A stretch of 64,000 bases of DNA from Polychytrium aggregatum (taxonomy: Eukaryota > Chytridiomycota > Chytridiomycetes > Polychytriales), in the NCBI RefSeq assembly GCF_025602895.1, contig NW_026516275.1, positions 1 to 64,000 of the forward strand. Direction: 5' to 3'. The number at the start of each line of letters is the position of its first letter. Within the stretch, counting starts at the first letter, position 1. Position numbers and translations under genes: made by a program. Shown in pieces: positions 2,043 through 36,148 of the stretch. The notes under the pieces were generated by a model. It was not told where the DNA came from and did not search any database. It saw only the letters and a list, made by a program, of their open reading frames with translations.

Positions 2043-4374
2043 TCACAGCGATGTCGTTGGCTGTCCAAGTCGCTCTAGCGTTTGGCGGAAATGATCAACA
2101 GGCTTTGCAGTCACCTCGAGATCTGCACCAACTCCAAACCAACTCTAGTGGCACATATTTTGGTGGGGAGTAGATTCAAATACAAAGTGGTTTCAGCCGA
2201 TGAGTTTGAATCATCTGCCCTCCCCCATCCTGTCTGCGGTATCGAACTAATGCACGCTACTCGAATCCACCACATCGAGTGCCCCAAGTTACCTTGATCA
2301 CCAATCTTCGGAGATGGAGATGCATGGGTGTGGACTTTTTCTTGAACATGCCCGCAAGCGAAGTGGGGCAACCCGCACCGTACTTGTAGTCGCCGAGAAT
2401 GTGTGCTGTTTGGGTGATTCGCCACAGCAATGCGCCGTTTGAGACAGGTCCATCTCGTTAGAGATTCTCAACCATCAGCCCCAGCCACATATTTACCCAG
2501 TGGCCTCAGTAGCATCGCGCCTTTAGTATCTAAGATATTCGCCACAACACCTACCGTTCAATATACTGGCGCAGTGGACGCGAAGCTGATGCTTTCTTCC
2601 GGTCTTGGGCTTCAGTTCGATCCAGGTAGGTCCGCTTTTGTAGGACGCAAGCACCTTCCATTCCGTGACCGCCTTTTGTGGCATGATACCAGAGGGCAGC
2701 GGCGTGGGCTCGGACTCGGTTTCGTCTGCATTACGCCAACGCACCCATCGGCGCCAATTATCGGGACAATAATAAGAACCGACATGTGTGGCGAACCTCC
2801 AGCAATAAAGGGCTCACAGGAGTAGCTTACGCCATTCAATGGTCTTTTGCTTCTCATTCGGGGGATCGCCCACAGTAACGATTCCCGTCGTGATAGATCC
2901 GGAGGCGCCGTGCTCGTCGTCGTTCGCTTTCGGTGCGCTGACCGTGATGGCCCAATACTGTTGTGTTTTATCGCAGCGAAACATCATTCATGAGTTGGGC
3001 CAGGCGCTCTCCTCGACATCCGCGATGTGCCTTTGATTGAATGCAGAAGATCGATCGACGGCGGCTATGCAACTTACCGTCTTTTCGACAGCATCATCCA
3101 TCTCAAACATCCTGATCAGCCGAGTCGCGGCGAGCTTGGTTCGGGCGAGCACAAATGCTCCAGTGGTATTCTTGAGCCAGACACATGGGCGATTTTAGGA
3201 ACGATGTCCCGAACAACTCGGACCGCAACGTCGACTCAAGCACGAACTCTCCACTACCTTGTCGAGGCGGTGCACAAGGCGAGGAGCCTCCTCTGCATCC
3301 ATGCGCAGACCCTCTAGAAGCATGGTCAGGTTGATGCCGGTCTTGGAGCCGCCTGATGATATTGGACGTTGTCGGCAGTTGGTACTCCGAGCTCAAAGAG
3401 CAATGATGCAGCCAATCTCGCCCACACATCAAACGAGCGTTCGATACAGCATCCCCACCTTGTACGGGGAGATCGTCAGGCTTGTTGATCACCAGGACGT
3501 GCTCATCCTTGAACAGAATGCTGCGGAAACCAAGGCCGCCATCAGTTCCATCAGCCGGGCGTGGCCCTGACCCGCTGCTGCTGACCCGAGCCACCAATGC
3601 GCTGCCTCCACGAGCCATACGATTCCTTCAGCTTCTCGACTTTGTCGTCCAAGATCTTTTGAAAGTCCTGCTTCTCCTTTGCCGTCATTTTCTTGGCTCG
3701 TTGCTTGCGCGTCAACGGCATGAGTACCTCGACTCGGTCGCCAGCATGCAGTTTGGCATCAGGCTTGATCTCCATGAAGCGGGCATGCGTCGAGCCAACG
3801 ACCTTGACCTGTTATCACACGGATGCCGTCAATAGCAAGGCACCGATCCCGCTGCCAAAGCCCACTGCGCTGTAGACTCGGCTATTTGCCCTCGCTTCTC
3901 AGCCCGAGCCGCGCAGCTCACCTCTTCATTGAGGATCTTGAGACGAACGACATTCTTCCGGAGGCCCAAATGGTTGGTCAGAAAGTGGTCGAGGCGAGCA
4001 TGGTGCTCATCGAGGGTCACCTCCAACCTCCTGGTCTCGTGTGGACGGGCCTCTGTCTCGGTAATATCCGACTTGACCAGAGCGTGCTTGGTGGGCTTCT
4101 TGTGAGTCTTGCGCTCCATTCGCTCGGCTCTATGGCGCTTCAGCTCAGGCTTATCAAGTCTGTGCCTCAAGTTCGAGGGCACCTCGGACGTTTCAGCTGC
4201 ATCGGCAGCCTGGATGGGCTTGGAGGGCACGGCATGCTTGATTCTCAGTGTCGACGTTGAGATCGCGATGGAGGCAGAAAATCCACGCATCAGGACCATC
4301 GCAGCGGATCGGGCAGGGCCGGAAGCAAGTACGCCCCGCGAGCCCCATTGCAGTGCTGAAGCCAGATGCGACAT
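2043..4374 (-). CDS. RluA-family RNA pseudouridine synthase (S4 domain plus catalytic domain)
   Basis: Isomerises uridine to pseudouridine in RNA. About nine exons. Exon 3922-4374 encodes a Ser/Arg-rich, mitochondrial-targeting-like leader and then an S4-type RNA-binding segment (LDHFLTNHLGLRKNVVRL...ILNEE). The next exon, from 3808, continues VKVVGSTHARF. Later exons give VLVINKPDDLPVQGG, then LVHRLDK joined to NTTGAFVLART, which is the RluA motif II with the catalytic Asp. They are followed by TGRKHQLRVH, ILGDYKYG and PMHLHLRRLVIK. The last exon reads LEVTAKPVDHFRQTLERLG and stops at 2043. Start 4374 (MSHLASAL) is chosen because it begins the presequence-like leader; an in-frame ATG at 4572 is an alternative. 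Organelle targeting (RPUSD-like) is inferred. Confidence 0.88.
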
Positions 4375-4693: not shown

Positions 4694-5367
4694 CTAGAGC
4701 CCGCCACCCTGCTTGTTGACATAGACATATCCGGCCAAAAACAGGGTCAGACCAACGAGGATGAGTGCGTTCTGGGCGAACGAACCCATCGCCGGCGTCT
4801 CGCCAGCAGCAGCAGCAGCAGCCGAGCCGGTGGCCCCAACTGCAGCCCCTGTTCCAAGAACCCGTCCTCCCGACTGAGGAAAGCCCGAGGATTCGCCTTT
4901 GTACCGCTGAATTGAGTTTTCGACGCCGCGGATGTTGGCCCCGACGATCTGATCGAGTTTCTTGTTGGAGCGATACAGCTGGAAGGTAGGCATGGCGGTG
5001 ATCTCGCACTCTTGCGAGATCTGGGTGTGCTCGTCGACATTGACCTGAGTGCCAACAAGAGGCTCGGCGTTAGCGAGAGTTGGGTGCAGCGAAGAATGGG
5101 GGGGGTAGCTGCATCCGCTATCACCATTCTGCGGCTGTGTTGCTAGACAGCATCTAGCGGCGTATTACTCGATGGATGATGCAACTTCTTTGGCGCTGCT
5201 ACCTTCAGAAAGATGACTCCCTTGTACTGCTCCGAGAGCTCCTCGAACCGAGGCGCAATGGCCTTGCATGGGCCGCACCAATCGGCATAAAAGTCGATGA
5301 CGACGAGCTTGCCGGACGACAGAGCCTTGCGAAAATCAGAGTCGGATTTGACGTGGACAATGGGCAT
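4694..5367 (-). CDS. Thioredoxin with C-terminal membrane anchor
   Basis: Two exons, 5203-5367 and 4694-5044, separated by a 158-bp GT-AG intron; both junctions are in phase, giving 171 aa. Exon 1 carries a thioredoxin N-half with the redox motif WCGPC (residues 30-34). Exon 2 supplies VNVDEHTQI and the cis-proline region AMPTFQLY. After the fold comes an Ala/Gly-rich linker, then a hydrophobic segment (ALILVGLTLFLAGYVYV) and a short NKQGGGL tail. A classical cytosolic thioredoxin is about 105 aa and lacks this extension, so the protein is probably tail-anchored with the redox domain in the cytosol. The target membrane cannot be told from sequence. Confidence 0.88.
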
Positions 5368-5392: not shown

Positions 5393-5452
5393 TGTGCGGC
5401 GGATGTGCGATCAATGTGCAGATCAATGTGCGATCAATGTGCAGGCAGATCA
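5393..5452. repeat. Short imperfect tandem repeat upstream of thioredoxin
   Basis: Iterated GATCAATGTGC-like 11-16 nt units (about four) lie just upstream of the thioredoxin start, probably in its promoter or 5' UTR. Confidence 0.6.
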
Positions 5453-5789
5453 CACTATCAATTTTTTCCGGCCCGCTCGCGGCTGCTCATCTCGGTCACC
5501 TGAAAGTCACGTCGAATGTGGAGCAGCAAAAGTTGGAATCCGGCCATGGTCGGTTGACGGCATTTGGTATCACCTTGAGCCGATTGACGGTGGTGGTGGG
5601 CAATTGGTGTGGAGGAATGACCAATTGTATCATTGTTGGAAGCTCCACTCCGATTGCGGACAAGAACCACCACCATCTGAATCTCTCTGGTTGGAAACCT
5701 AGTCAAGCGTGGCTGTGTGTCAGCGAGATGACATGATCGTTTGACTATCAGGCAAGACTCACCTTGACAAGATGTCTTCCCACGACTGA

Positions 5790-6920
5790 TTGAGCGAGCG
5801 ATGCGTTTCTGGATCCGAATCAAGGACGCCACTGCACAGTATCTCGGCCAGCCCAAAATGCGCTGGTTTTGAGGAGATTCTTTCTTCCCCAAGGGCAGAA
5901 CCAGCCATCGTCGCTATTTTCTCGCCAGATGGCTCCCCGCAAGCGAAAGTCACCACCCAGGCGACCAAGTGGATCCAGAGCACCCACAAGATCCTTGGTC
6001 TGCAGCAATGGATGAGCACCACACCAAGTCCCAAGATCACCGGGTTGGCTTCCTTCCTGCAATACATTCGCCATGTGTTCGATGGAGACATGCTGGACAA
6101 ACAGCTGTACTTCAGCCTGACCCGGCGACGGCGATTCAAGCGACTCGATCTCCACAGCAAGCGACAGCGCACTGTCCACGAGATGTGCAAGCAAGTCATC
6201 GACCAGGCACCAAAGGAGACCGAGGTGGTGATTGCCTTTGGGAATGCCTCCTGGAAACAGGGGAAGGGATATGCATCCAGTCCCAGGAGACTCAGGTTCG
6301 CCAAGTACTTTGAGCAATTCCACCACCACCAGAGCCACCCACCAGACCGATCCGTCTCCAAGATCCATGTGTGCTCGGTGAACGAGTTCAACACATCCCA
6401 GGTGTGCTCACATTGTCGGGAAGCCAAGCGACTCGAGAAGGTCGAGCATCTTGATATCGAGAAACCACACTTTGTCCGGAGCTGTGCAAGCTGCCATACG
6501 CTGTGGGATCGAGACATCAATGCAGCCAGGAACATGATCTCGGTATGCCAGTCGATCATCGCCACAGGAGATCGGCCGAGTGTATTCAAGACTGTGCTTC
6601 CGGACCCACCCAAAACAAAGAGATTGCCAACGAAGACAGGAGTGCAATGCCATGGCCTGCCCGCTGGGCCTACAAGTCAGTCAGCGGGGTTCAGGCCTCT
6701 GAAGCCAGGAAGGATCTGTCCCGTTTCTTTCTGGATAGACTGTAAGTATCTCGCACTGTTCCTTGAGTATTTCGACAGTGGATGCCGGGTCGCCCATATT
6801 CTGGGCAGTCCACTTCGGGGTTGCCATCCCTCTTGGGATGGTCGATGGGAGGTGTTTGACTCCCTTGTGCAAAGTGTGTGTGTGCGGATGTGTGTGTGTG
6901 TGCAAAGTGTGTGTGTGTGA
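5790..6920 (+). CDS. Fanzor-like (eukaryotic TnpB homologue) RuvC nuclease, possibly degenerate
   Basis: Fanzors are RNA-guided DNA nucleases related to TnpB/Cas12. Recognisable here: the arginine/aromatic helix FSLTRRRRFKRLDLHSKRQR (residues 109-126), the RuvC-II region VVIAFGNASW (146-155), NEFNTSQVCSHC (198-209), a second zinc knuckle CASC (232-235), and the RuvC-III signature WDRDINAARN (239-248). It then has the Fanzor-type tail IATGDRPSVFK. Glu199 in NEFNTS is a candidate for the rearranged catalytic glutamate known in Fanzors. The N-terminus is short: the expected DPG-type RuvC-I aspartate is not visible where the frame reads SPRAEPAIVAIFSPDG. The copy is therefore 5'-truncated, frameshifted upstream, or lacks an exon. 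Sequence past about 6610 is probably not conserved protein. Start uncertain. Confidence 0.82.
   Translation: MSERCVSGSESRTPLHSISASPKCAGFEEILSSPRAEPAIVAIFSPDGSPQAKVTTQATKWIQSTHKILGLQQWMSTTPSPKITGLASFLQYIRHVFDGDMLDKQLYFSLTRRRRFKRLDLHSKRQRTVHEMCKQVIDQAPKETEVVIAFGNASWKQGKGYASSPRRLRFAKYFEQFHHHQSHPPDRSVSKIHVCSVNEFNTSQVCSHCREAKRLEKVEHLDIEKPHFVRSCASCHTLWDRDINAARNMISVCQSIIATGDRPSVFKTVLPDPPKTKRLPTKTGVQCHGLPAGPTSQSAGFRPLKPGRICPVSFWIDCKYLALFLEYFDSGCRVAHILGSPLRGCHPSWDGRWEVFDSLVQSVCVRMCVCVQSVCV
6613..6742 (+). other. Conserved 3' tail of the Fanzor-like element
   Basis: Downstream of the conserved protein end, about 100 bp (ending GATAGACTG) is still shared with the second copy at 53460-53550. Similarity stops abruptly at about 6742 and 53550, which marks the element's right end. 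Some of the tail may encode a guide (omega/fRNA-type) scaffold; that is inference. Confidence 0.6.
6867..6919. repeat. (TG)n microsatellite
   Basis: Three interrupted TG runs spaced by GCAAAG and CGGA, directly downstream of the Fanzor-like element. Confidence 0.85.
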
Positions 6921-7251
6921 CGGCGAGAGGCTTCTCGCCTTCCCTCGGGGGTCTCTCGCCAGAGACTGCTCTTCTCGCCGACCGAGGTGGCTCCGAGAGC
7001 GCGTTTTTTCGTTCTCGCTCATTTTTTTAACATGAATTTTTTTCATAGTGTCAGGCAGCAAGGGCGGGGTCAGTGCCGGGACGGCTGTGCACGTGGTCGG
7101 CCATGGGACATGGGTCGGGGAGGCGTTGCCGTCCCTGTCCCAGCCCCCTGGCGGTCTCCTGGGCTCACTGGATGCACATCGATGTATTCAAAATCAAGAA
7201 AATAGTGACTGCTGGGCTCAGCAAGGTGACGTGGTTCATTTTGCTATCGCT

Positions 7252-31561: not shown

Positions 31562-31982
31562 GGTGATCTGCAGTGCCTTGCAGGATGTATGCGGAAACGG
31601 GAACAGAAAGACGAGATCGACACGGGTGGCGGGGCAACGGATGGGTGTTTGAGAGCGAGGGGATCATGTGACGTTCGCTTCGGCAGTCGCATCGGCAATC
31701 ACATCGATACCTGTGGTGGTCCGGGGGAGTGTACCGCTTGCGAGCGAGCCGGTGCCGTTTTGAACTGACCGTAGCCCGTTCGATGGGTTTCGGGCATCGA
31801 TCCTTTGGGCTGGGTTGGCCGGATCAGGGCCATTTCCACCTCCAAATCAGCAACACAGCCCAGAGACCGGTTGGATACAGAACAAGGCCGTTCACCGCAA
31901 AAGCGGTCCCTTTCCCTCGCCTTTGCCACAGGCCTCTCTCTTTCATCGTCCGCTCCATTCCCACCAACAACCCCGTCCAGCC
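31562..31982. promoter_or_regulatory. Shared divergent promoter region of WDR70 and the TIR-NLR gene
   Basis: 421 bp between the two ATGs (31561 minus, 31983 plus). A bidirectional arrangement is inferred from gene orientation. No TATA box or specific operator is evident. Confidence 0.5.
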
Positions 31983-34900
31983 ATGCTGACACCCACCAGC
32001 AACCAGCTCTATTCCTGTCCTGCCCACGGCACCGACCACGACCTGTTCCTCTCATACCAAGCCCAGACTGATGCCGAAACTGTCCAGGCTCTGAAGGAGG
32101 TGCTCACCTCGGTCGCCCTCCGTCGATATGGCAAAACCCTTTCCGTCTTCCACGATGTCGACTGCCTCAACAATCCCAGCGACCCTCAAGCCAGTTCTAT
32201 CAGTGCCCTTCCCAAGTGTAAAGCTGTCTTCCTGCTCCTAAGCAAGGGCTCAATGGACTTGATGAAGAACAAGGTCAAGAATGGCCAAGAGGACAACGTC
32301 GTCCTCGAAATCAAGACCGCCCTCGACCTCAAGGATACCAAACGCTCCCTCCCTGTCCTTCCCCTCGGAATCGCCACCAAGGAAACCAAGGATGGTGTCG
32401 ATGTCTTCACTCCCTTCCTGCCGTACATGGTGTCTCTCCCCGACGACCCAGCTTTTGCCTCGCTCAAGCAGACCCTCGGCAGAGTGAACCACATCCAGTC
32501 CTTTGGCTTCCGTCCAGACCAGATGCACAAGCGAATCTACCGCCTCCTCAACCTCGTCCATCCCATCCCACCCAACATGGATCTCATTACGGTCATCCAT
32601 CGCAAATACTTTTGCGACTCCAAGTTCCGATTCGATCCCGCCCACCTCGACACCCTACTCAAGCAACTCACCCTGACTGGCCGCGCCGTCATCTCCGGCA
32701 TGGGTGGCATGGGCAAGTCCGTCCTCGCCATCCAGATCCTGTTCTTCATGATGGGCATTATGAATGCGAGCAACAGGGAAGACCTCATCGCCATCAAAGC
32801 CGAGACCATCGGCATCAAGCCGCAGTACCGCCAGGTCTTCTGGATCAACTGCTCGACCGAGTCGACTGCCATCGATGGACTCATCGACATGTTCCCTGGC
32901 ATCAAGCCCGATGTGATCAAGGAACATGCCTCGAGGTTCCTCGCCAACACTCACGGCTATCTCCTGGTGCTCGACAATGTCGATGACATCAACGTGGTCG
33001 ACTCTGTGTTTGAGCACTCCAAGTCGGTCGGGTTCAGCGGCGATGTGGTGGTGACGACCCGGCTGGCCTCGCTGCCTCCTGGTGCATTCACCAGTGCTCT
33101 TGAGACCAAGGCACCGAGCTTCCAGCACGATCCACTCCGTCTCGTCAACTGGGACGACACCACCACACTCGACTATATCATGTCGTCATCGCCAATGATT
33201 GTCCAGCGACTTGTGTCGGACGAGGCCAGGAAATCCCTCGACAGCATTGTGGCCAAGATCAGTGGATATCCACTCGTCATCCAGACATTCATGACGTTTG
33301 CCGAGAACTACGACACTCCCCTGTCGGTGCTCGAGGCCACGTTTGCAGGAGCATTGGAGCTGCAGGATGGCGAGGACGACACGCGGTCGTCGCTCAAGGT
33401 GATTGTGGATCTGTCGCTGGACTCGCTGATGAAGCGAGGGAATGAAGGTATCGAGGCAGCCAGGCTGTTTGGAGCACTCAGTCTGGTGGCGCCGGCCAAC
33501 ATCCAGCTCGAGTTGATCAATGAGATTGCAGAGCAGTTGGAACTCAAGACCGATGGTGAGTTGCGAGTGGATCAAAGTGCAATCAATGGTGTCAGTGTAT
33601 GGAACTGATCATTCATCTGTCCACAGTGGCCGATCTGATCAAGATGGTGGTCCAGAGTGGTCTCCTCCGAAGTGGAGCCGAGGGACAGTACTCGACCCAC
33701 TCGCTCACCCAGCAAGTGGCTCGAGAGTATGTCCAAGCACACAGTGAACTGAATGCCGAAAGTATCGAAGATGCAACTGGTGAAGTGTTGCTCGAGTTAG
33801 CCGAGTCGATGGATATCAAGGCACAATCATTTGCGGAGCATCTTGACCGTTATGTTGAAAGGATAGTGCCAGAAGTGTACACCAAGGGGCTGCATGCGCG
33901 AGTAGAGTTCCAAGTCGCCAGACTGGCACAAGAAAAACCTTTCTCCATCAAAGCAATGGAAACGCTCAGAAGGAACTTGGAGCGAAGTAAGGTGTTCTAT
34001 GGCACCAGCGAACATCCGGGCGTTGCCGGAATCCTCAATAACATGGGTACTGTGGCCAATTCCCAAGGGCATCTGAACGAAGCACTTGCCTTCTTCCAAG
34101 AGGCACTCAATATCAAGGTCAAAGTCTATGGTACTCGCGAGCATCCTGGAGTTGCTTTGACCATTAACAACATGGGCTTAGCGACAAATGATCAAGGACG
34201 CCTGGACGAAGCACTTGCCTTCTTCCAAGAGGCACTCAATATCAAGGTCAAAGTCTATGGTACTCGCGAGCATCCCGCTGTTGCTCAAACCCTCAACAAC
34301 ATGGGTTTATTGAGAAGATCTCAAGGACGCCTGGACGAAGCACTTGCCTTCTTCCAAGAGGCACTCAATATCAAGGTCAAAGTCTATGGTACTCGCGAGC
34401 ATCCTGATGTTGCTTTGACTATTAACAACATGGGCTTAGCGACAAATGATCAAGGACGCCTGGACGAAGCACTTGCCTTCTTCCAAGAGGCACTCAGTAT
34501 CAAGGTCAAGGTGTTTGGCACTCGCGAGCATCCCGTTGTAGCTCAGACCCTCCAAAATATGGGTAGTATGGCGAGTGATCAAGGGCGCCTGAATGAAGCC
34601 CTTGCCTTCTTCCAAGAGGCACTTGATATCAGGGTCAAGGTGTTTGGCACTCGCGAGCATCCCGATATTGCCGCAACCCTCAACAATATGGGTGCGGTGG
34701 CAAGTGATCAAGGACGCTTGGACGAAGCCCTTGCCTTCTACCAAGAGTCACTTGATATCAAGGTCAAGGTGTTTGGCACTCGCGAGCATCCCGATATTGC
34801 CGCAACCCTCAACAACATGGGTAATGTGACAAAATCTCAAGGACACCTGGACAATGCACTCACCTTCTACCAAGAGTCACTTGATATCAAGGTCAAGGTG

Positions 34901-36148
34901 TTTGGCACTCGCGAGCATCCCGATATTGCCGCAACCCTCAACAATATGGGTGCGGTGGCAAGTGATCAAGGACGCTTGGACGAAGCCCTTGCCTTCTACC
35001 AAGAGTCACTTGATATCAAGGTCAAGGTGTTTGGCACTCGCGAGCATCCCGATATTGCCGCAACCCTCAACAACATGGGTAATGTGACAAAATCTCAAGG
35101 ACACCTGGACAATGCACTCACCTTCTACAAAGAGTCACTTGATATCAAGGTCAAGGTGTTTGGCACTCGCGAGCATCCCGATATTGCCACAACCCTCAAC
35201 AATATGGGTGCGGTGGCAAGTGATCAAGGACGCTTGGACGAAGCCCTTGCCTTCTACCAAGAGTCACTTGATATCAAGGTCAAGATATGTGGCACACGCG
35301 AGCATCCTGATGTTGCCCGGATACTTGGTAACATGGGTTTCTTGGCGAGTGACCAAGGCCACCTGGACGATGCACTTGTCTTCTTTCAAGAGTCAGTTGA
35401 TGTCGCCATAAAGATTGGTGGTACTCTTGAATGTGCCCATATTGGACAGATCCTGAACAGCATGTGCTACATTTCAAGACTCTTGGGTCGTCCCACCCAG
35501 GCTCTCCATTATGCCAATCAATGCCTTGACATCTACCTTGAACTCTATGGTACTCGTGAACACTCCTCGGTGGCTGGCATCCTTGATGAGTTTGGATGGA
35601 TTCACTTTCTTCAATCTGACTTCGCCAAAGCACTCGAATACCACATAGAGGCCCTCGATATTGCCACGAGAATCTCAAACGACCCAACAGGAGCTCAAGA
35701 GGCCGAATTCCTCGTTGGCTGTGGTGCAGACCTGATCCATCTTGGCCAGCTCGACGATGCCCAGTCCAAACTCGAGAAATCACTCGAGCTTCTCAGAGCC
35801 ATCCACTCCACGACCGATAATGCCTCTGTTGCCCATGCACTGTGTTGGCTTGGCGATCTTCGTCGACTCCAAGGCAGCCATGATGATGCCCTCATCCTCT
35901 ATAACGATGCCATGTTTATGGTGAAGCGACTGTCACGACCTTCAAACCCAATCATCATTCCTCAAGCTCTCCATGGCATTGCAACCATTCAAAGATCCAG
36001 GAAGCAGTTTGATGCTGCTCGGGATTCCACAACCAAAGCCATTGATATCCTTCTCGAGCGTGTTCCCGATCATCCATACCTTCAGCAGATGAAATCCTTC
36101 TCTATCGAACTGGGCAAGGGGATTGGATCAAGTGACAGCTCGAGCTAG
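31983..36148 (+). CDS. TIR-NB-ARC-TPR protein (NLR/STAND-type)
   Basis: Predicted intracellular STAND receptor, 1,364 aa, two exons (31983-33555 and 33627-36148) with a 71-bp GTGAGT...CACAG intron, in phase. Residues about 18-125 form a TIR-like domain: HDLFLSYQ, FHDVDCLNN, VFLLLSKGS and VVLEIKTAL, with Glu109 at the position of the NADase glutamate. Residue 237 starts a P-loop, ISGMGGMGKSVLA; Walker B is YLLVLDNVDD (326-335); a GLPL-like motif reads ISGYPLVIQ; a winged-helix region follows. From about residue 650, some 16 TPRs of 43 residues run to the C-terminus, consensus GTREHPDIAATLNNMG...ALAFYQESLDIKVKV. TIR is uncommon in fungal NLRs, which more often carry HET or NACHT modules. Ligand unknown; an immune, allorecognition or cell-death role is inference. 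Confidence 0.9.
33990..35410 (+). repeat. Eleven near-identical 129-bp coding repeats (TPR)
   Basis: Each unit encodes a 43-residue TPR. Units 6+7 and 8+9 are copies of one 258-bp double unit, almost identical at the nucleotide level, and unit 10 repeats unit 6. Units after 35410 are diverged. Confidence 0.95.

Follow-up and report, generated by a model that had tools for sequence, protein, structure and literature searches.

The reading frame that opens at position 5790 of the window (the whole stretch of 64,000 nucleotides analyzed here, which is contig C390 in an examined genome of 64.7 Mb and 418 contigs) shows motifs typical of Fanzor proteins, and this locus raises the question of whether a functional RNA-guided nuclease is encoded there. 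The original prediction had proposed such a gene for 5790..6742.

A Fanzor-type C-terminal half in the reading frame at 5790

Reading of the sequence confirmed that all motifs attributed to the predicted protein are present on the plus strand in the frame from 5790, namely RRRRFKR (6123-6143), VVIAFGNASW (6225-6254), NEFNTSQVCSHC (6381-6416), CASC (6483-6494), WDRDINAARN (6504-6533), and GDRPSVFK (6567-6590). In a profile check, the window protein matched the Pfam family PF07282 (Cas12f1-like_TNB) with an E-value of 1.8e-10 and 41.2 bits (cut-off 26.3). Because of this match, and because at least 108 further scored matches exist in the same genome, the motif match is not a chance event. Glu199 (codon 6384..6386, plus strand), to which the role of the relocated catalytic glutamate had been assigned, is indeed the alternative RuvC-II glutamate, since it is located six residues before the first zinc cysteine (Cys206), as in the definition given for this residue (six residues before the zinc finger; PMC10711439), and since VVIAFGNASW lacks a Glu at the canonical place. 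The RuvC-III aspartate is Asp242 (codon 6513..6515, plus strand), the last Asp of DRD, and the RD of the family aligns with the RD of SpuFz1 (8gkh), for which D383, E541, and D606 are the catalytic residues (PMC11423790, PMC10432273).

The homology claim is right: what the frame of the window copy holds is the C-terminal portion of a Fanzor-type protein. The functional claim is wrong for this copy, as RuvC-I and nearly all of the coding sequence upstream of it have been deleted. Of the proposed span, the start at 5790 holds as the beginning of the frame (a TTG, not an ATG, which lies upstream of the original start codon), while the end at 6742 does not, as the frame reaches 6920. A structure prediction for the fragment 5967-6605 gave a mean pLDDT of 37.9 and was set aside because the fold was not assessable.

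The frame lies within an internally deleted CACTA-type element

By comparison of copies, the ends of a non-autonomous CACTA-type element of 1,598 bp (CACTAT...ATAGTG; 5453..7050, plus strand) were set. The trinucleotide TCA adjoins CACTAT on the left (5450..5452) and ATAGTG on the right (7051..7053) as target-site duplication. The left end CACTATCAATTTTTTCCGGCC (5453..5473, plus strand) has 53 exact copies in the genome, compared to 0 for the reversed control, and the right end TTTTTTCATAGTG (7038..7050, plus strand), a 13-mer, has 150 copies, compared to 3 for the reversed control, some of the 150 belonging to autonomous CACTA elements, whose left end reads this way on the opposite strand. 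On contig C397 there is a further short copy that is 99.7% identical and whose flanks agree as well; it is probably the other haplotype of the window site.

Inside the element, an original start codon context (MAPRKRK...; 5929..6015, plus strand) corresponds by homology to the place where full-length copies begin with MAPKRK.... Its ATG at 5929 no longer shares a frame with the Fanzor remnant, and reading from there meets a stop after 28 codons. A deletion junction with a short microhomology (5951..5958, plus strand) marks the place where about 1.8 kb of coding sequence is gone when compared to the long copies. With it went the CCHC-like motifs of the N-terminus, the coding stretch leading to RuvC-I, and GIDPG as well. 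The window aligns to positions 744-1247 plus 3043-4150 of the long copy L039, and window positions 5897-5958 and 5951-7051 align to 1934-1992 and 3771-4844 of L040, respectively. This junction is identical in all 19 aligned short copies, with small differences beside it. The Fanzor coding remnant (5967..6716, plus strand; PF07282) consists of the RuvC end, the TNB zinc domain, and the C-terminal tail, and is 90-93% identical at the DNA level to the long copies L039-L043. It is followed by TGTCCCGTTTCTTTCTGGATAGACTGTA (6717..6744, plus strand), a right end seemingly captured from a mariner-like Fanzor element, as a near-identical end closes the elements L041 and L043, by a conserved 3' block (6780..6860, plus strand; diversity 0.011 in 11 short and 0.009 in 14 long copies), and by a conserved block with predicted hairpins (6919..7022, plus strand; diversity about 0.017).

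On the left of the element, a thioredoxin-like gene on the minus strand (window 4694-5357), with an apparent intron, was spotted by eye from its WCGPC motif. The sequence places its start codon at about 5357, and the element is located about 95 bp upstream of this codon, in the likely promoter or 5' leader. Two short pieces of this frame gave no match in Pfam at 1e-3. Farther away, an NLR-like gene (window 31815-36148, plus strand) presents an NB-ARC match (26 bits), followed by many TPR_10/TPR_12 repeats in the next frame.

CACTA elements are defined by CACTA/TAGTG ends and a 3-bp duplication (PMC4158355), and both CACTA...TAGTG ends and a 3-bp target-site duplication are found in the window element. 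The duplication was studied across the family in 44 cases where both ends were located by exact patterns; 8 of them repeat a site, which leaves 36 distinct sites, and a looser allele test on these revealed no further repeats. An exact 3-bp duplication was present at 24 of the 36 sites, window included, and missing at 12, and a 4-bp match occurred at none, while a control with shuffled partners gave a mean of 2.85 and a maximum of 9 three-base matches.

The genome contains 29 matches to PF02992, and an autonomous CACTA element of 5,681 bp surrounds such matches. Its first 14 bases are the reverse complement of the right end of the window element, and the inner ends of the Fanzor elements differ from it. 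For autonomous CACTA elements, an exact duplication was found at 9 of the 16 sites for which both ends had been read (one pairing is doubtful due to overlapping stretches) and at 2 of 3 other sites. When two autonomous insertions were tested, one had an empty site elsewhere, where 97 of 97 bases match and ATC is present once, and none was found for the second. No empty allele was detected for three Fanzor insertions, two of which are filled on both haplotypes and one of which is single-copy. Seventeen of the 36 Fanzor-element sites were seen twice, presumably on both haplotypes, compared to 1 of 21 autonomous CACTA sites (the exact left ends counted were 53 of the Fanzor type and 22 of autonomous CACTA elements), an excess that age could explain, as two autonomous CACTA copies show 100% identity along their 5,681 bp. 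As no transposase was found inside the CACTA-type Fanzor elements, we infer that a CACTA transposase of the PF02992 type, encoded elsewhere, would move the window copy in trans.

Long members of the family encode a complete Fanzor-type protein

A search with the window protein yielded at least 109 scored matches in the genome, window included, a number that mixes alleles on two haplotypes as well as both element types, CACTA-type and mariner-like. Many of the matching frames have 750-1,100 amino acids and align to the query only from about residue 31. For 31 of the 53 left ends, a partner was identified within the 100 of 150 right-end places that were listed; 15 of the paired elements measure 3,353-3,767 bp, 13 measure 1,550-1,711 bp, two have about 2.2 kb, and one has 295 bp. 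Of this last element (L100, contig C21), nothing is left but the two CACTA ends and some 200 bp from the 3' region, and its insertion site is also present on C404.

Six proteins were aligned, from L039, L040, and L042 (CACTA-type; in L042 the first bases of the left end are lost), from L041 and L043 (mariner-like), and from L044, which belongs to a more distant family. Counted from the usual start, the proteins comprise 861 (L040), 856 (L042), 887 (L041), and 884 (L043) residues, and the frame of L039 is without the usual start. GIDPG, NEFNTSQVC with the alternative glutamate, and both zinc-cysteine pairs are invariant in all six, which also share an R-P-x-V tail. Full-length copies display DPG, the alternative glutamate, a C4 zinc finger, and RD, the features expected of a Fanzor; in L040, DRD is replaced by DQD. 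In the literature, Fanzors are recognized by the combination of DPG with the alternative glutamate (PMC10711439). Near the N-terminus a CCHC-like motif (CxxCxxxxHx7C) was noted, for example at residues 98-114 of L041, and some copies have two such motifs. Its four positions are invariant in the six aligned proteins, and it is a putative zinc knuckle; a Pfam scan of three full-length proteins gave no match at this motif.

A profile of the RuvC-TNB half had SpuFz1 (8gkh) as its best, although weak, match in the PDB (E 0.0068), and a profile of the full-length proteins retrieved no Fanzor structure from the PDB at E 0.1. Scores with guided_TnpB (NF040570) were 23-27 bits for the Fanzor family studied here, compared to 110 bits for the IS607-type protein L002. 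Scanning of viral contigs with the full-length alignment revealed no relative. The protein L002 itself, a frame of 477 amino acids, joins an IS607-type serine recombinase N-terminus (NF033518, residues 12-80) to an IS607-type, TnpB/Fanzor2-like part with DPG and GEEYTSKTC. L003, L006, and L007 have the same frame length and score as L002, the only one of them that was translated, and these four are situated on contigs C124 and C379 as inverted pairs about 5 kb apart.

The best explanation for the element at 5453-7050, which we hold with high confidence, is a dead transposon copy from a Fanzor-bearing family, shortened by an internal deletion. It is a non-autonomous CACTA-type element of a family whose 3.4-3.8 kb members possess a complete Fanzor-type coding region, and its deletion took RuvC-I together with almost the entire N-terminal part, so that the original start no longer shares a frame with what remains. 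Such a copy would contribute no nuclease, and its transposon ends, and possibly a guide-RNA scaffold, would be kept passively.

The remnant as a working or a selected protein

Two other readings grant the remnant a function of its own. According to one, the locus is a functional gene for a compact Fanzor-like nuclease guided by RNA, and the zinc domain, the alternative glutamate, and DRD are indeed intact in a single open frame. Against this, RuvC-I and nearly all preceding coding sequence are deleted, the DPG motif is absent from all six frames of the window copy (5453-7050), no stretch between 5453 and 7050 matches the missing half, the original ATG is out of frame, and the Fanzor frame has its first ATG only at residue 75 (WMSTTPSP), which lies beyond RuvC-I. 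We consider this reading scarcely credible. According to the other, which we regard as very improbable albeit less so than a working nuclease, the short ORF is a selected truncated protein, e.g., a guide-RNA-binding regulator or a blocker of full-length Fanzor. In its favor, 12 of 14 short copies chosen by DNA, window included, keep the Fanzor frame open (an early selection test had taken copies picked by protein score, which is a biased set), and singletons look constrained, with 37 synonymous and 45 nonsynonymous changes compared to 23.1 and 58.2 expected. For the 14 short copies (13 distinct), 65 synonymous, 69 nonsynonymous, and 4 stop changes were counted when 38.4, 93.3, and 6.2 were expected, so that N/S amounted to 0.44 of neutral as long as variants shared with long copies were still included. 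However, among variants absent from 18 long copies there were 29 synonymous, 63 nonsynonymous, and 3 stop changes, compared to 26.6, 64.0, and 4.4 expected, and the signal vanishes without the states also present in long copies (ratio 0.88-1.14). In a tree of 54 distinct sequences, short copies intermingle with long ones, and the two classes have 107 polymorphic states in common, as recombination or conversion would give. Selection on the short ORF was therefore rejected, as the signal was gone once long-copy states had been removed. New mutations in short copies fit protein neutrality, and the apparent constraint on the short ORF is most simply understood as inherited from long copies via recombination or conversion, in line with the preferred reading of a dead transposon copy.

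The same gene resides in elements with mariner-like ends

In L041 and L043, the same Fanzor gene is located in elements of 3,659 and 3,790 bp with TACAG...CTGTA ends that form an imperfect inverted repeat; we call these elements mariner-like solely from their TA-bounded ends. Beyond their right end, the flanks of L041 and L043 are unrelated. When alleles are counted, 45 of 53 CACTA-type loci examined contain the exact mariner-like right end and 8 are without it, and in each of these 45 the next bases, AGTAT or AGCAT, belong to the CACTA interior. The mariner-like left end was absent from all four CACTA-type elements compared. As the CACTA backbone contains the mariner-like right end, the gene and this end would have been captured together, and it seems that the CACTA family took both from a mariner-like Fanzor element. 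Neither CACTA nor EnSpm is mentioned in the main texts of Bao and Jurka (2013) and of Yoon et al., and CACTA is not mentioned in the main text of Saito et al. Among the matches listed from a literature largely without subscription papers, no paper had CACTA and Fanzor together.

Insertion sites carry a directional motif

At 25 of 36 Fanzor-element sites, the left flank shows A/C at position -4, C/T at -3, and A/C at -2, i.e., A/C-C/T-A/C-N, the last three bases of which are the target-site duplication. The motif was found beside 5 of 21 autonomous CACTA elements (p 0.001 when compared with 25/36) and, read inward, on 4 of 36 right flanks. Among these first 36 sites, the motif is present at 11 of 15 long elements, at 12 of 19 short ones, and at both elements of other sizes (2 of 2). 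This motif was chosen after the data had been seen and was then fixed before further copies were fetched for a held-out test. In held-out set A (16 left ends) it was present in 5 of 6 new sites (6 of 7 before L150 was dropped as an allele), and in set B (20 right ends, scored for the part within the duplication) 13 of 14 new sites fit (14 of 15 before L158 was dropped as an allele), while the duplication-internal part fits 7 of 21 autonomous CACTA sites. With left flanks pooled, 30 of 42 fit in register, compared to 1-9 of 42 at 15 shifted registers. The left flanks of mariner-type elements are too few for a motif comparison (six), and L028 matches the outer bases only.

Tentatively, A/C-C/T-A/C-N might be the footprint of a Fanzor TAM. 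Guides derived from the right flank might then let Fanzor cut empty sites that bear the TAM, so that even broken copies, with Fanzor provided in trans, would spread or become homozygous; to the TAM reading and to this second step alike we give clearly less than an even chance, and dropping the two alleles from the held-out sets makes no difference to this estimate. The stronger candidate, for which the chances appear balanced, is that the asymmetric left motif reflects the target preference of the family's CACTA transposase alone, with no role for Fanzor. The autonomous CACTA elements compared represent one subfamily, other PF02992 types exist in the genome, and the inner ends of the Fanzor elements are unlike those compared. 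Moreover, the two ends of the Fanzor elements differ from each other, which makes an oriented transposase possible, and the old guide-RNA site behind the mariner-like right end now faces the near-constant AGTAT/AGCAT in 45 of 45 loci. Against a transposase preference speaks the strand asymmetry of the motif (25/36 on the left, 4/36 on the right), although both ends begin with CACTAT: a TAM is directional, whereas a symmetric transposase should give a symmetric motif, and the asymmetry thus speaks for a TAM. Also, only 5 of 21 autonomous CACTA sites have the motif, and a motif that contains the duplication resembles the situation in SpuFz1, with CATA as TAM (PMC10432273), and the geometry in insect-virus Fanzor1, where guide RNAs run about 15 nt past the duplication (PMC10711439). 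In the TAM reading, Fanzor from intact copies, loaded with right-end guides, might act at sites with a suitable TAM, and such action might favor copies located behind the motif; of these steps we are less sure than of mobilization in trans.

The 3' region and a possible guide RNA

The hairpin block at 6919..7022 could equally be a candidate guide-RNA scaffold or consist of CACTA subterminal repeats. A fold z-score of -2.44 was obtained for 6919-7050, and for the longer stretch 6780-7065 it was -1.35, with 20 of 200 shuffles equally good, which is no better than expected. No covariation was seen in the 3' hairpins (0 of 32 pairs in 35 sequences, which are too alike), and the single Rfam match was below the gathering score of its family. 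Constraint was studied with 11 short and 14 long copies, leaving out L177, L178, L182, and L185 (anchor missing) and L019 (allele of L013). The hairpin block has a low standing diversity (9 of 104 sites compared to 57 of 210 third positions, p 1e-4), which may reflect a guide-RNA or transposase-binding function, and no stronger constraint on it after the deletion was detected in short copies (7 of 104 sites compared to 40 of 630 coding sites, p 0.83). In L024, L174, and L176, the same stretch of about 21 bp between two TCTCGCC repeats is missing from this block, indicating that the first long hairpin is unnecessary for persistence of the element.

Relation to known systems and meaning

One of the closest known systems is SPu-1 of Spizellomyces punctatus with its Fanzor1 protein SpuFz1: the C-terminal half studied here has 8gkh as its best, weak match in the PDB, and a mariner-like form of the gene with TA-bounded ends exists here too (L041, L043). 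SPu-1 has about 2.1 kb, encodes 633 amino acids, and possesses 33-bp TIRs and a putative TA duplication (PMC3627910). The CACTA form, in contrast, is 3.4-3.8 kb long and encodes 856-861 amino acids (two copies), with CCHC-like motifs near the N-terminus, and its CACTA ends are flanked by a duplication of 3 bp. "Ghost" Spu-1 copies that lack Fanzor and keep transposon ends and the 3' region, like L100 here, were described by Saito et al. (2023), and the guide RNAs of four such loci work in human cells, whereas here there are predicted hairpins alone. ROr-4, PBl-3, and MCi-4 (Bao and Jurka, 2013) are likewise TIR transposons that carry a Fanzor gene and lack a transposase of their own, but have 9-bp duplications and MuDR-like ends instead of a 3-bp duplication and CACTA ends. 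With CACTA (EnSpm) elements and their deletion derivatives, the family shares CACTA/TAGTG termini and a 3-bp duplication (PMC4158355), and PF02992 is present in the genome; unlike them, it carries a Fanzor gene.

The window copy is ordinary transposon debris, and the part worth following is the family, with the apparent passage of its gene from mariner-like to CACTA-type elements and its directional motif. The role of Fanzor for its eukaryotic transposon is an open question (PMC10432273). As the same Fanzor gene occurs in mariner-like and in CACTA-type elements, in many copies, at defined sites, and with a predictive motif, this role becomes testable here and, if Fanzor does act at these sites, the family would provide genomic evidence of RNA-guided homing in a eukaryotic cut-and-paste transposon.
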